A program made the position numbers and the translations under genes. Positions 42,687 to 62,607 of a stretch of 64,000 bases of DNA are shown here, in pieces. Under the pieces are notes generated by a model that had not been told where the DNA came from, did not search any database, and saw only the letters and a list, made by a program, of their open reading frames with translations. The stretch's first letter is position 1, and each line of letters opens with the position of its first letter. The DNA lies in NCBI RefSeq assembly GCF_002243515.1, contig NZ_CP022657.1:712001-776000 (forward strand), in the 5' to 3' direction. The stretch comes from Tumebacillus algifaecis. Its GTDB lineage: Bacteria > Bacillota > Bacilli > Tumebacillales > Tumebacillaceae.

Positions 42687-42722
42687 AAAAAAAGACTCCC
42701 TTGTCATTAGAACAAGGGAGCC
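42687..42722 (-). terminator. Terminator of the HTH-TPR regulator gene
   Basis: On the minus strand, an 11-bp stem of GGCTCCCTTGT and ACAAGGGAGTC followed by seven T. It overlaps the stop codon. Confidence 0.85.
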
Positions 42723-44053
42723 GGATTGGTTCTGGTCGTTTCGAGACGCTGTTTGTAGAACTGAGCCGCTTGTTCGAACTGGCCCAATTTGAAATAGGTG
42801 TCGGCAAGTTTCTCTTGCAGTTCGGCGATCATCTGGCGGTCGGTACCTTGTAAAAAGAGGGCGTAGGAGGCTTTGAAATTGAGCAAGGCCTCGGTGTAGC
42901 GCTCGCGTTTGAAATCGACGCGACCAAGGTAGAGGTGCGCGTACGCTTTGAATTTTGGCTGGTGGTCTTCACGGATGATCGTGTTGCAGATCTGCAGCAC
43001 TTGCGCTGTCTCGCCAAGTAACAGGAAGGCGCGGGACATTTCGAGCCGGGCATTGGTCGCGCGTGCTTCGAGGCGTGCGGCTTCGACCAGATCTGACTTC
43101 ACCTGCGCGAGGCGCAGTTCTTCATAGATCGTGATCGACGATGCCAACGCTTGCAACGCTTTTTCCCCTTGGCCGATATTGGTGTAGAGGATGCCGAGGT
43201 TGGTGATGACGCCCGCTTTGTTTTCGCTGTGTTCCGCATATTCGTAGAAGTCGATGGCGCGGCGGAATAGTTCGATCGCCTGCTCGGTTTCCCCGATCTG
43301 CATCTGGCAGGTGCCCAGCGTAAAGTAGATGTGTCCCGCCTTGTAATGCACGTTCATCGCATGGTTGAGGTAGTTGGCTTCATTCAGCAAGCGAATGGCC
43401 GAATGATACTCGCCAAGCTTGGCGTGCGCCACCCCGGTGTTGATCAGCACGGAAGTTTTCACGAGGCCGCCAAGCTGGGAGCGAATGATCAGCTCGTTCG
43501 CTTGGTTTAGAATGCGCAGCGCTTCCTGATTGTCACCGAGTTGCAAATAGCAGTAGGCAAGCGAGTCGTAGGAGCGGACCAACTCTTTGGAATCCACATA
43601 TTCCTTCAAATGCTCGCGGCTCGCTTCATAAAACGGGATCGCTTCTTTGAACTGATGGGTCTGTTCCAGCAATCGACCTTGTACCCATGACAAGATACCT
43701 AAATCGAAGTCGTTTAACTCATCCTTTGATGCATGGTTTAAGTTATCGACGATCTTCTTGGCCTGTTCAAATTGGCCCGATTCGGCATGACCTTCTGCGA
43801 ATCGCACAAATTTCTTCCAGTCCGTGATGAGCATCGCTTTGTTTTCTGGTTCTTTGAAAAAATCTTCGACAGAACATTGCAGCTTTTGTGACAGCTTTTC
43901 CAACGTGTCATAAGACGGTTGAATTAAGCCTTTTTCGATCTGGCTGATATAGCTGCGCGTGACTACCCCTTCGGCTAACTCTTGCTGTGTCAGTTTGGAG
44001 GCTTTACGCAACTCTTTGATTCTTTGTCCAACTCCTGCCATCCCCGATAACAC
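42707..44053 (-). CDS. HTH-TPR regulator (RNPP-like quorum-sensing receptor)
   Basis: 448 aa. N-terminal Xre-type HTH (GQRIKELRKASKLTQQELAE, TRSYISQIEKGLIQPSYDTL) at about 8-65. From about residue 75 to the end there are tandem tetratricopeptide repeats (e.g. YDSLAYCYLQLGDNQEALRI, LYTNIGQGEKALQALASS, AYAHLYLGRVDFKRERYTEA). This is the architecture of RNPP/PlcR/NprR-type regulators that bind short imported peptides in the TPR groove. A small gene for an exported propeptide lies divergently 287 bases away, the usual pairing. A start four codons downstream (second ATG) is equally possible. Confidence 0.88.
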   Translation of the reverse strand: MLSGMAGVGQRIKELRKASKLTQQELAEGVVTRSYISQIEKGLIQPSYDTLEKLSQKLQCSVEDFFKEPENKAMLITDWKKFVRFAEGHAESGQFEQAKKIVDNLNHASKDELNDFDLGILSWVQGRLLEQTHQFKEAIPFYEASREHLKEYVDSKELVRSYDSLAYCYLQLGDNQEALRILNQANELIIRSQLGGLVKTSVLINTGVAHAKLGEYHSAIRLLNEANYLNHAMNVHYKAGHIYFTLGTCQMQIGETEQAIELFRRAIDFYEYAEHSENKAGVITNLGILYTNIGQGEKALQALASSITIYEELRLAQVKSDLVEAARLEARATNARLEMSRAFLLLGETAQVLQICNTIIREDHQPKFKAYAHLYLGRVDFKRERYTEALLNFKASYALFLQGTDRQMIAELQEKLADTYFKLGQFEQAAQFYKQRLETTRTNPAPLF

Positions 44054-44241
44054 TCCTATGTCAAGTCATTGTATGCAAACAAGACGCCTCTATCTATTAA
44101 GTAAGTATAGCATACTAGTACAAGAGCCAATTGTCCTTCTTTTAAAGTCGCAATGTAAGTATCGACAACAAAATGGTCGAGATAATCATTTAGACAAAAC
44201 GATACATTATTCGGATTGTATATAAATGTTCAAAAATGTCA

Positions 44242-44270
44242 TTGACTAGATGGGGGAATCCGTCTACTAT
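44242..44270 (+). promoter_or_regulatory. Promoter of the propeptide gene
   Basis: TTGACT, 17 bases, TACTAT: a good sigma-A promoter. Start of transcription would be near 44277, at an AACAATTGTT palindrome (44290-44299 region) that could be a regulator site. Confidence 0.7.
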
Positions 44271-44339
44271 ATTTGTAACAATACTAAACAATTGTTCTAT
44301 GTTTTAGAAATGTATATTTGTGTATGTATAGGAGGAACT

Positions 44340-44486
44340 ATGATGAGAAAGAATAAGATGCTGAATGTATTGGCTTGCGGTTTGTTGGCAGTTGCAGTTG
44401 TTGTGGCAGTTTCAGCTATGGTTGAACCGAATGCAGTTTTGCAGGCTGAACTGGTGTGGCCGATCGGCAACGCTCCGGTGCGCTAA
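44340..44486 (+). CDS. Exported signalling propeptide (Phr/PapR-like), 48 aa
   Basis: Starts at ATG 44340 (or 44343) behind AGGAGG. Lysines at the N-terminus, a hydrophobic core (VLACGLLAVAVVVAVSAMV), then a short polar tail ending ELVWPIGNAPVR. This is the standard build of a Phr/PapR/NprX propeptide: secretion signal plus a C-terminal piece that is cut to a short pheromone. It is divergent to the HTH-TPR regulator and has its own promoter. The active peptide is expected within the last 5-12 residues; which cut is used cannot be told. Confidence 0.75.
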   Translation: MMRKNKMLNVLACGLLAVAVVVAVSAMVEPNAVLQAELVWPIGNAPVR

Positions 44487-44633
44487 GCTCAAGCTTACAT
44501 TTGGATCGTTGAGTAAAACGGGACGACAAGAAGTATAGAATCCAGCAAGAACGCGAAAGTGCTCACCTTCAAGCAAAAGTGGAGAGTGGACGGGCTTTCG
44601 CGTTTTCTTGTTTATCAGCAGGAGGGAATCTCG

Positions 44634-44861
44634 ATGGTAGACACGGCAGACGGCGGGCAGCAGATGGCGTATGTGGCAGCAGTTCAGGAAGAGGAGCTGT
44701 GCCGGACGCTGCTGGAACAATTGCGTCGTGAGTTGAGCGATGCAGGGGCGGGGGCAGAACGGATCAGACCGCTCTACGCGCAGGTTGAAGTCGGTTGGCG
44801 CACAGCGGTCAATCGGGTCGAGTGGTGCAAAAGTGAACTTGTGAGAATGGCTCAGCGTTAG
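44634..44861 (+). CDS. Small hypothetical protein (75 aa)
   Basis: ATG at 44634 behind AGGAGGGAA; the longer frame from 44559 runs through an inverted repeat (AACGCGAAAG ... CTTTCGCGTT, 44544-44614). Soluble, helical, with two Cys ([32 protein letters not shown]). No family recognised. It lies between the propeptide and glmS and ends in a terminator-like hairpin. Confidence 0.6.
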
Positions 44862-44880
44862 TTGCTGGCCATTTTTTTTA
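44848..44880 (+). terminator. Terminator ahead of the glutamate mutase genes
   Basis: TGGC-TCAGC / GCTGGCCA stem with one bulged base, followed by eight T. Confidence 0.6.
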
Positions 44881-60822: not shown

Positions 60823-62607
60823 CTACTTTTGCCTGAACCACAAGTTGCGGTAATCGACCCAACCCTGCGAGTTAAGCGTGACACCGTGCACAAGTGGGTG
60901 CGTCGAGACGGTGACCCACGTTCGGTACAGCGGCAGGACGACGTGCTCGGCGAGCAGGCGAGATTCGATCTGGCGCAGGAGGTCGAGCCTTGCCTCCCGC
61001 GAGGTTTGGGATAGCAGGTTGTCGATCGTCCGAGCGGTGTAGGCGCGCAGTTCCGGGCTCAAGTGCGGAGCGAGGAAAGAACACGAGGAGAGAAAGAGGT
61101 CGAGGTAGGACAGTTCGAGATTGTCCTCGATCGTCGCACCGTCGAGGATCAGATCGGCCGCTGCGATCTGTTCAGGTTGGATCATCTCGCGGTAGGGAAG
61201 CGGTCGGATGGTGATGGCGACACCTGCCGCTTGGCAGGTCTCTGCGATCCACATGGCGTCTTCGAGATGGTCAGGATCGCCAAAGGTGGAGAGGAGCAAG
61301 GGCTCGCCGTCGTAACCGCTTTGGGCAAGCAGCGCCGCAATCTGCGAACGATCGGACGGGGTGTCTGTCGTCATCTGCTCCAAGACGACATCGAAGCGGG
61401 TGGCCGGGGCATAGCGGTCGCCGCCGAGGTCTGCGATCAACTGCCTTTTGTTGAGCAACAGGGAAAGCGCCTCGCGAAAGGCGAGGTGCTGCTGGGGGCG
61501 GTGCGGCTTGTTCAGGTTGCAGGTCAGCATTTGAAACGACGTCTCTAACTGCTCGGTCGTCGCCCAGTCGGCGCTGGCTGTGCCGTATTTGATCGTATCT
61601 TCGAAAACGGCTACAGGCAGGTCGAGGTCGGACACGATCCAGATCTCAATGCGGTCGAGCAAAGCCCGCTCGCGGAAGTAAGGAAGGAACGCTTCGCAGA
61701 CGAGCATCGTCTCATCGTTGCGGATCACTTTGAACGGACCGCTGCCGACCGGAAGGCGAGCGAAATCGGCGCCGATTGCTGTACAGTAGTCCTCAGGAAC
61801 GATCGAAGCGCGCGCCGTGCTGAAAAATTGCAGCAAAAGCTGATTCGGCGCATCGAGCGTAACCTGTAGCGTGAGATCATTGAGGGCGGTAATACTGCGG
61901 ACGCCTGCGAACATCCAAGGGTAGAGCGAGTCGTTTTGCAGGCGCTTGATCGAAAAAACGGCATCGCGAGCGGTGAGCGGGGCTCCATTATGAAAGAACA
62001 CCCCTTTGCGCAGATAGAACGTGTAACAGGTCTCATCGTCGCTGATCTCCCAGTTGTGAGCGAGATGAGGGCGGATCTCAGCAGTTGTCGGGTCGCAGAT
62101 GACGAGCGTGTCAAAAATGTGATTGAGCACATGCAGTTCGGAGCGCAACATCGCGATGGCCGGATCGAGGTAGAACAAAGGATTGGAGTGGGTCAAGCGC
62201 AGCGTGTCGAGCGCCTCGGTGCCGCTCTGGTCGGCTGCATGAAAGCCGAAGTGCGAGGACAGCCATGTCTCATAGCGAGTGTGCAGCGCGGGATACTTGC
62301 TGCGGTAGGGCTCGATCAGTTGTGTGGCGGTGCGGAGATCGCCTGCGCGGACAAGCTCTTGGGCAAGGGAAAACAGCAGATCGGCAGGTGCGATCTGCAA
62401 GGTGAGCTGGGAGGTATGGCCGCGTCCACGCCCAGGTTGCCAGTGCAGCCAGTTGTGCTCGGTCAGCTTTTTCAAAATCAGTTTGGCGTTGCGCGGGGTG
62501 CAGCAGAGCATGTTCGCCACACCGGCAGAGGTGATCGGTACGGACTGCCCGATCACACAGCTTTGGAGCTGTTCGGTCAAACGGATATAGTGATGGACAG
62601 CTTGCAT
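60823..62607 (-). CDS. SgrR-like regulator with solute-binding domain
   Basis: 594 aa from the ATG at 62607 behind GGAAAGAAGAG; the frame extends upstream to 62847 but that part overlaps the divergent ABC gene. N-terminal DNA-binding SgrR_N domain (VANMLCCTPRNAKLILKKLT, NWLHWQPGRGRGHTSQLTL). From about residue 160 an SBP_bac_5 oligopeptide/solute-binding fold (LTHSNPLFYLDPAIAMLRSE, LAHNWEISDDETCYTFYLRKG, PVGSGPFKVIRNDE). No signal peptide, so it senses a ligand in the cytoplasm. The divergent ABC exporter is its likely target. Confidence 0.9.
   Translation of the reverse strand: MQAVHHYIRLTEQLQSCVIGQSVPITSAGVANMLCCTPRNAKLILKKLTEHNWLHWQPGRGRGHTSQLTLQIAPADLLFSLAQELVRAGDLRTATQLIEPYRSKYPALHTRYETWLSSHFGFHAADQSGTEALDTLRLTHSNPLFYLDPAIAMLRSELHVLNHIFDTLVICDPTTAEIRPHLAHNWEISDDETCYTFYLRKGVFFHNGAPLTARDAVFSIKRLQNDSLYPWMFAGVRSITALNDLTLQVTLDAPNQLLLQFFSTARASIVPEDYCTAIGADFARLPVGSGPFKVIRNDETMLVCEAFLPYFRERALLDRIEIWIVSDLDLPVAVFEDTIKYGTASADWATTEQLETSFQMLTCNLNKPHRPQQHLAFREALSLLLNKRQLIADLGGDRYAPATRFDVVLEQMTTDTPSDRSQIAALLAQSGYDGEPLLLSTFGDPDHLEDAMWIAETCQAAGVAITIRPLPYREMIQPEQIAAADLILDGATIEDNLELSYLDLFLSSCSFLAPHLSPELRAYTARTIDNLLSQTSREARLDLLRQIESRLLAEHVVLPLYRTWVTVSTHPLVHGVTLNSQGWVDYRNLWFRQK

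Follow-up and report, generated by a model that had tools for sequence, protein, structure and literature searches.

A regulator gene of Tumebacillus algifaecis and a small gene divergent from it probably form an RRNPP(A)-type pair of receptor and pheromone, in a subfamily whose pheromone carries a Trp-Pro core; we put the probability of this reading, in which the peptide would be exported, imported and bound by its receptor, at about 0.83. The pair lies in the window, as we call the whole 64,000-nucleotide stretch of DNA analysed, which comes from a closed genome of 4.5 Mb (positions 712001-776000). An earlier note on this DNA had described a 448-residue Xre-HTH plus TPR protein beside a 48-residue exported propeptide, had proposed RNPP quorum sensing, and had suggested the neighboring glutamate mutase-NRPS locus as its output. 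The two-gene observation, an HTH-TPR regulator with a divergent 48-residue ORF, is confirmed. The quorum-sensing reading is borne out insofar as ORF and core are conserved throughout the family of related genomes and the regulator has a predicted NprR-like architecture of HTH plus nine TPRs; the NRPS output is not. This family (f1, dubbed Tumebacillus and kin) comprises seven genomes, G000-G006, from two genera, with G000 the genome of the window.

The two genes and the region between them

The regulator gene runs on the minus strand from an ATG at 44041 to 42707 and encodes 444 residues, within the range of about 250-500 for RRNPP(A) receptors. An Xre-type HTH (approximately residues 1-65) precedes nine predicted TPR helix pairs, and Pfam matches are to HTH_3 and many TPR models (TPR_12, E-value 5.8e-30). 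The earlier note was right about the reading frame and its domains, but its 448 residues require a GTG start (42707-44053). The ATG is more likely on alignment, because orthologues in the sister genus have an ATG at the equivalent position and because the window's AGGAG overlaps the GTG. There is no upstream in-frame ATG start at locus L047; an earlier start is possible at L045 and L046, and the GTG, which is also kept in G001 and G002, is a possible alternative. A terminator-like hairpin of the gene, with 12 pairs and a T-run, lies at 42694-42722 (minus strand). In Tumebacillus avium, the nearest named relative that we met, the regulator is 79% identical.

On the plus strand, the propeptide gene occupies 44340-44486 and translates as MMRKNKMLNVLACGLLAVAVVVAVSAMVEPNAVLQAELVWPIGNAPVR, 48 residues with a hydrophobic start and the tail ELVWPIGNAPVR; an ATG at 44343, giving 47 residues, is an equally good start. 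A Shine-Dalgarno sequence, AGGAGG, stands at 44330-44335, so that both the ribosome site and the tail of the earlier note were found again. Precursor lengths in the family, 44-48 residues, fall within the 10-100 of RRNPP(A) precursors. The N-terminus is basic and followed by a hydrophobic stretch, a secretion signal as judged from hydropathy only, and the likely signal-peptidase sites, compared by eye, align poorly across the seven family precursors. Codons 44448-44477 (plus strand) would specify the predicted pheromone region ELVWPIGNAP, with core E-L-V-W-P and putative ends. A hairpin 3' of the gene (44544-44612, plus strand; -31.3 kcal/mol for 44540-44620) is a candidate terminator or attenuator, and G001 and G002 have a similar one after the propeptide gene.

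The promoter TTGACT-17-TACTAT (44242-44270, plus strand), which the earlier note had placed before the small gene, was recovered by a promoter scan. The match alone proves little, because the scan gave six promoter-like sites and shuffled sequence gave 2.9 +/- 1.9, but TTGAC and its spacing are conserved in all seven family genomes. The intergenic alignment of these genomes reads TGTTCA, TTGAC, a -10 element (TACTAT, TACCAT or TAGTAT) and then TAAC. A candidate operator, TGTTCAAAAATGTCATTGAC (44227-44246, plus strand), overlaps the -35 and might be bound by the regulator; its TGTTCA and TTGAC are kept in the whole family and in the five Priestia plasmids examined. The alignment also points to a likely regulator promoter with the extended -10 TATGCTATACT (44104-44114, minus strand), which is kept on the regulator side of all seven genomes in the minus-strand form TATGNTATACT.

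A 21-base operator pattern was searched in the seven genomes with up to three mismatches, with the reversed pattern as control. The site at the peptide promoter is perfect in five genomes, with two mismatches in G000 and three in G005, and it is the best match in six of the seven. There were 73 sites in all against 43 for the reversed pattern, seven of them being the peptide promoters. The other 66, a mild excess, may reflect promoter-like TTGAC sequences or a few hidden targets, and no second operator copy stands out in these searches. Since 66 compares with 43, the attempt to derive a regulon from the pattern was given up, and the peptide promoter is the sole target that sequence supports.

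Conservation and distribution of the pair

At E<=1e-60, a search of 61 genomes found one regulator orthologue in each of the seven family genomes and none in the other 54. A gene-order search at E<=1e-40 matched 7 of 14 genomes, and the window's own genome has one extra, truncated copy. Directly adjoining the regulator in 7/7 family genomes is a divergent ORF of 44-48 residues with a hydrophobic start and a Trp-Pro in its tail, so that the comparative search suggested in the earlier note found both the small ORF and its C-terminal core conserved. The core reads (A/D/E)(L/V)(V/I)WP, and columns M2, W40, P41 and N44 are invariant. A profile of the seven precursors finds those seven at E-values of 3.8e-23 to 3.6e-20 and the next best sequence in 41 genomes at 0.0052, a clean separation that is partly by construction because the profile was built from the same seven. 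The HTH is nearly invariant. Such sequence comparisons establish the pairing of the genes, the conservation of the Trp-Pro core at the protein level, and that of the HTH and promoter motif. HTH and promoter are kept in all seven genomes, while the two genera differ in the neighboring genes, and the pair therefore appears to be a self-contained module.

Within the window's genome, the best-scoring paralogue of the regulator, the truncated copy, is 42% identical over half the length, and no other exceeds 29% over most of the length. A class search of 398 genomes (E<=1e-45) found 17 regulator matches outside the family. A divergent Trp-Pro ORF with a hydrophobic start occurs at four of these loci, three in genus g45 and the fourth in genome G284 (L147, L148, L151 and L153 together); the G284 precursor, a single 50-residue ORF, carries SPVWP twice. 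The same criterion found no such ORF at the other 13. Locus L156 has an ORF with EEIWPLIV but low hydropathy. For g45 the search was widened to 80 family genomes and detected the regulator in seven, which are all seven of genus g45, and each has a divergent ORF with DEEWPRI. At five of these seven loci (L183-L189, except L187 and L189) the precursor also has a lipobox-like LSGC or LTGC, so export by a lipoprotein route may occur in some species. A G284-family scan of 19 loci, eight of them shared with the class search, found no divergent Trp-Pro ORF. The peptides at L170 (ESDAWG) and L182 (APDWGW) have Trp but no Trp-Pro.

Taking 14 close and 17 farther loci together, 18 of 31 homologues have a divergent Trp-Pro ORF, in a sample that is not fully independent (L144 equals L145, and L141 is nearly L142) and by a criterion fixed after the peptides were seen. 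By comparison, the count is 0 of 26 for HTH-TPR paralogues of the window's genome (30 loci from 35 matches, less the window's own L001 and the short frames L019, L022 and L030) and 0 of 3100 for dinucleotide shuffles. In a tree of 38 rows, from which L145, L154, L158, L160, L162 and 14 of the 26 paralogues were omitted, the 17 Trp-Pro rows and the 12 paralogues fall on opposite sides of a branch with support 100/98; the long branches L018 and L028 may be falsely joined. Nine rows without a Trp-Pro ORF fall inside the Trp-Pro side, and the motif is therefore not universal in the clade. Viral contigs (27 loci) match mainly over the HTH, and phages (five records) over the HTH only.

A tblastn search against plasmids found seven from Priestia with near full-length regulator matches at 37-39% identity. 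All seven (L139-L145) have one to three divergent tiny ORFs of 28-31 residues, which end in DPVWP, DPVWPRV or DPAWP and extend 5-7 residues beyond the hydrophobic stretch. The peptide is identical in L144 and L145, as is that of the first ORF in L141 and L142, so there are fewer than seven independent cases. None of the tiny ORFs appears in the PLSDB gene table, itself incomplete. Five aligned promoters have AATGTTCA with TTGACA-17-TACTAT, an arrangement like that of the family but two bases tighter. On every plasmid, the last peptide ORF ends 22-25 nt before the next gene, which is annotated as an RCCLKC-tail radical SAM protein in all seven records and in L139 scores 698.9 bits (cut-off 450) to NF040542, the arsinothricin biosynthesis radical SAM protein ArsL; L139:259-2266 is an example of precursor genes ahead of arsL. 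Beyond the radical SAM gene lie, by name, an aquaporin or MIP channel and a GTP-binding protein (once cobalamin biosynthesis). On the other side of the regulator are ArsR, an ATP-grasp protein and a permease, of ArsP_1 type in L139. The position of the peptide genes suggests that the organoarsenical pathway may be under pheromone control. Should the plasmid systems operate as their gene order implies, the pathway of an arsenic-containing antibiotic would be governed by quorum sensing. The available part of the arsinothricin paper PMC8552651 contains no word beginning with "quorum", and in a literature search on arsinothricin with quorum neither word stood in the title or abstract of any paper returned.

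Predicted receptor fold and known systems

An AlphaFold2 model built from five sequences (pLDDT 88.2) shows the HTH followed by the nine TPR helix pairs. In a second-look structural alignment the best quorum sensor was NprR without peptide (5dbk; Z 27.7, rmsd 3.4, 346 residues), with RapI at Z 26.1 and NprR with NprX at Z 24.6. Several eukaryotic LGN TPR structures outscore NprR (up to Z 30.2 over 314 residues); superhelices of this kind are common, and a TPR fold by itself does not identify a quorum sensor. By sequence, most PDB matches were eukaryotic or engineered TPR proteins and HTHs of the SinR type; PlcR matched through its HTH, and NprR was not among the 60 of 121 matches listed. Clan B, as described in PMC12700828, consists of QssR, NprR and Rap, and the predicted nine-TPR form points to a place for our regulator there. 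Its TPRs are readily recognized by Pfam; nine degenerate TPRs mark AloR and AimR of clan C.

A conserved Asn that anchors the peptide backbone is a feature of RRNPP(A) receptors; in RapF this is Asn227, strictly conserved in the RNPP superfamily according to PMC3601957. Asn281 of our regulator lies in an NLG sequence of a kind common in TPRs and does not vary among 15 aligned clade members. A weak alignment (hhalign 92.1%) pairs it with the YHNLG asparagine of Rap pLS20, which on our own reading may be the equivalent of RapF Asn227. The genome encodes six homologues of SBP_bac_5 oligopeptide-binding proteins, which say little about re-import because 11 of 14 control genomes match the same family too. 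One oligopeptide-binding-protein-like gene lies in the window itself (61084-62079, minus strand; SBP_bac_5 E-value 7.8e-43; open frame of 677 residues).

The sign of regulation and its targets are inferred, as are the steps from export and cutting to import and binding, which most likely follow the standard RRNPP cycle. The 48-residue precursor would be exported by way of its hydrophobic N-terminus and then cut, leaving as the signal a C-terminal stretch around E-L-V-W-P-I-G-N-A-P. An oligopeptide permease would bring the signal back into the cell, where it would bind on the concave side of the nine TPRs. The bound peptide would alter the action of the HTH at the TGTTCA/TTGAC site that overlaps the peptide gene's -35, so that the signal would feed back on its own production. 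Since the short Priestia precursors end 5-7 residues past the hydrophobic stretch, D-P-V-W-P(-R-V) may be near the mature signal there, which suggests E-L-V-W-P plus part of IGNAP as its probable counterpart in the window.

NprR-NprX likewise has an HTH and nine TPRs, a fold that in the window is predicted; the NprX gene lies directly after the receptor gene on the same strand, whereas our peptide gene is divergent (7/7) and its signal has a Trp-Pro core. Rgg-SHP systems are divergent, like the window pair. PlcR-PapR is likewise an HTH-TPR system, but its peptide gene is not known to be divergent. Both PlcR and Rgg (clan A) have a five-TPR fold, and SHP is exported by PptAB (PMC12700828), in contrast to the nine TPR pairs predicted here. 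AloR-AloP of Paenibacillus also combines a TPR receptor with a small precursor, of 32-50 residues (PMC7425212), but belongs to clan C, with more degenerate TPRs (PMC12700828).

Qsr-Qsp (QssR) of Clostridium acetobutylicum belongs to clan B (PMC12700828). A proline and a tryptophan are common to the Qsp tails, and the heptapeptide AEPTWGW is active (PMC7376267); among the tested signals that we met in the literature, this one comes closest in kind. The likeness, by signal and clan description, lies in a conserved Pro and Trp, as in W40 and P41 of the window precursor (7/7), but their order differs. The earlier note held that RNPP systems have exactly this pairing; that is accurate for an HTH-TPR receptor with an adjoining small gene, but not for the layout, since aloP and qsp lie downstream of their receptor genes and the precursor gene here is divergent.

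PMC10075063, the source of a five-criterion RRNPP signature, reports that RRNPP_detector found 21 novel candidate subfamilies, and 10 Alicyclobacillaceae biosynthetic clusters with candidate systems; Priestia koreensis FS-1 is noted there as having two plasmid-borne NprR-NprX systems. Tumebacillus is not mentioned in the main text, and a literature search combining RRNPP and Tumebacillus returned no paper. The window pair may already be among the predictions of RRNPP_detector, in the supplement on the Alicyclobacillaceae clusters. The kind of system is known. In the portion of the literature covered by our searches, we met neither a subfamily marked by a divergent gene and a Trp-Pro core nor its location ahead of arsL.

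Alternative readings, possible outputs and other receptors

The small ORF might instead encode a membrane or secreted effector (a small toxin, a bacteriocin or a membrane-anchored peptide) under the control of a regulator that responds to a different ligand. Divergent layouts of regulator and effector are common in general, and a hydrophobic stretch would suit such a product. We nevertheless consider it improbable, as the strongest constraint is in the polar tail, the Priestia versions leave so few residues beyond the hydrophobic stretch, and the doubled SPVWP of G284 resembles the signal repeats in pheromone precursors (PMC11343458). It is scarcely credible that conserved regulatory DNA happens to contain this reading frame by chance. 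The upstream DNA is itself conserved, but substitution counts in the core favor constraint on the protein: pN is 0.04-0.23 against pS of 0.31-0.75, with pN below pS in all eight genome pairs compared of 21 possible. A similar core beside Priestia regulators of such low identity and the empty result of the shuffles also speak against chance. The linker before the core is variable (pN 0.33-0.88). For the most distant pair compared, the window and G005 (L041), the full-length ORF gives pN 0.50 and pS 0.53, so constraint outside the core is slight at that distance.

A pheromone pair could also be dedicated to the adjacent locus, where mutase genes and an NRPS (three condensation, two adenylation and two carrier stretches) lie downstream of the pair. 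The first mutase genes also follow the pair in G001 and G002, so that mutase genes adjoin it in three genomes of the window's genus; there is no promoter room between the hairpin after the peptide gene and a 75-residue ORF ahead of glmS; and the Priestia peptide genes directly precede a biosynthetic gene. Because this ORF, at 44634, starts right after that hairpin, read-through from the peptide promoter is possible. The evidence on the other side makes such a dedicated system unlikely. MutE occurs in three of the seven family genomes, all of the window's genus, and was not found at E<=1e-30 in the four sister-genus genomes that have the pair. Besides the hairpin after the peptide gene, a terminator-like one (44852-44868) stands just before glmS, and no operator match with up to three mismatches lies between 44486 and 45000. 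The locus as output, as the earlier note had proposed, is for these reasons not upheld, and we keep to the reading of a self-contained receptor-pheromone pair. The 75-residue ORF (44634-44861, plus strand) has counterparts in G001 and G002, and a longer reading of 100 residues has no Pfam match.

More tentatively, at a little under even odds, we propose a distinct RRNPPA subfamily with a divergent precursor gene and a Trp-Pro core, present on chromosomes of several families and on Priestia plasmids, in which the plasmid arsL and organoarsenical antibiotic pathway would be under pheromone control and a truncated receptor with nearly the same HTH, in a phage-like region of the window's genome, could interfere with the host circuit. 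Irrespective of that proposal, the pairs found here give a testable pheromone code (E/D-L-V-W-P, D-P-V-W-P, S-P-V-W-P, D-E-E-W-P), along with a receptor, a candidate operator and a promoter suited to reporter assays. The truncated receptor is the paralogue L002 / L043 (G000:C1:3050264-3050944), which has a very similar HTH and about half of the TPRs. It sits among a DnaB-like helicase, a DnaD-like loader and other phage-type replication genes, and no precursor gene was seen beside it; judging from its sequence, it might eavesdrop on the signal or have a dominant-negative effect.

Roughly 25 further HTH-TPR genes occur in the window's genome (G000, L002-L029). Seven of them (L004, L010, L011, L013, L018, L023 and L024) have a small ORF with a hydrophobic start overlapping or just after the 3' end, the usual RRNPP layout. 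Among these precursor candidates SITTPI occurs twice at L010, and PGPGPMS twice or nearly so at L011. At L020 a divergent ORF has LPPQH twice. The repeats at these three loci recall the tandem-pheromone precursors described in PMC11343458.
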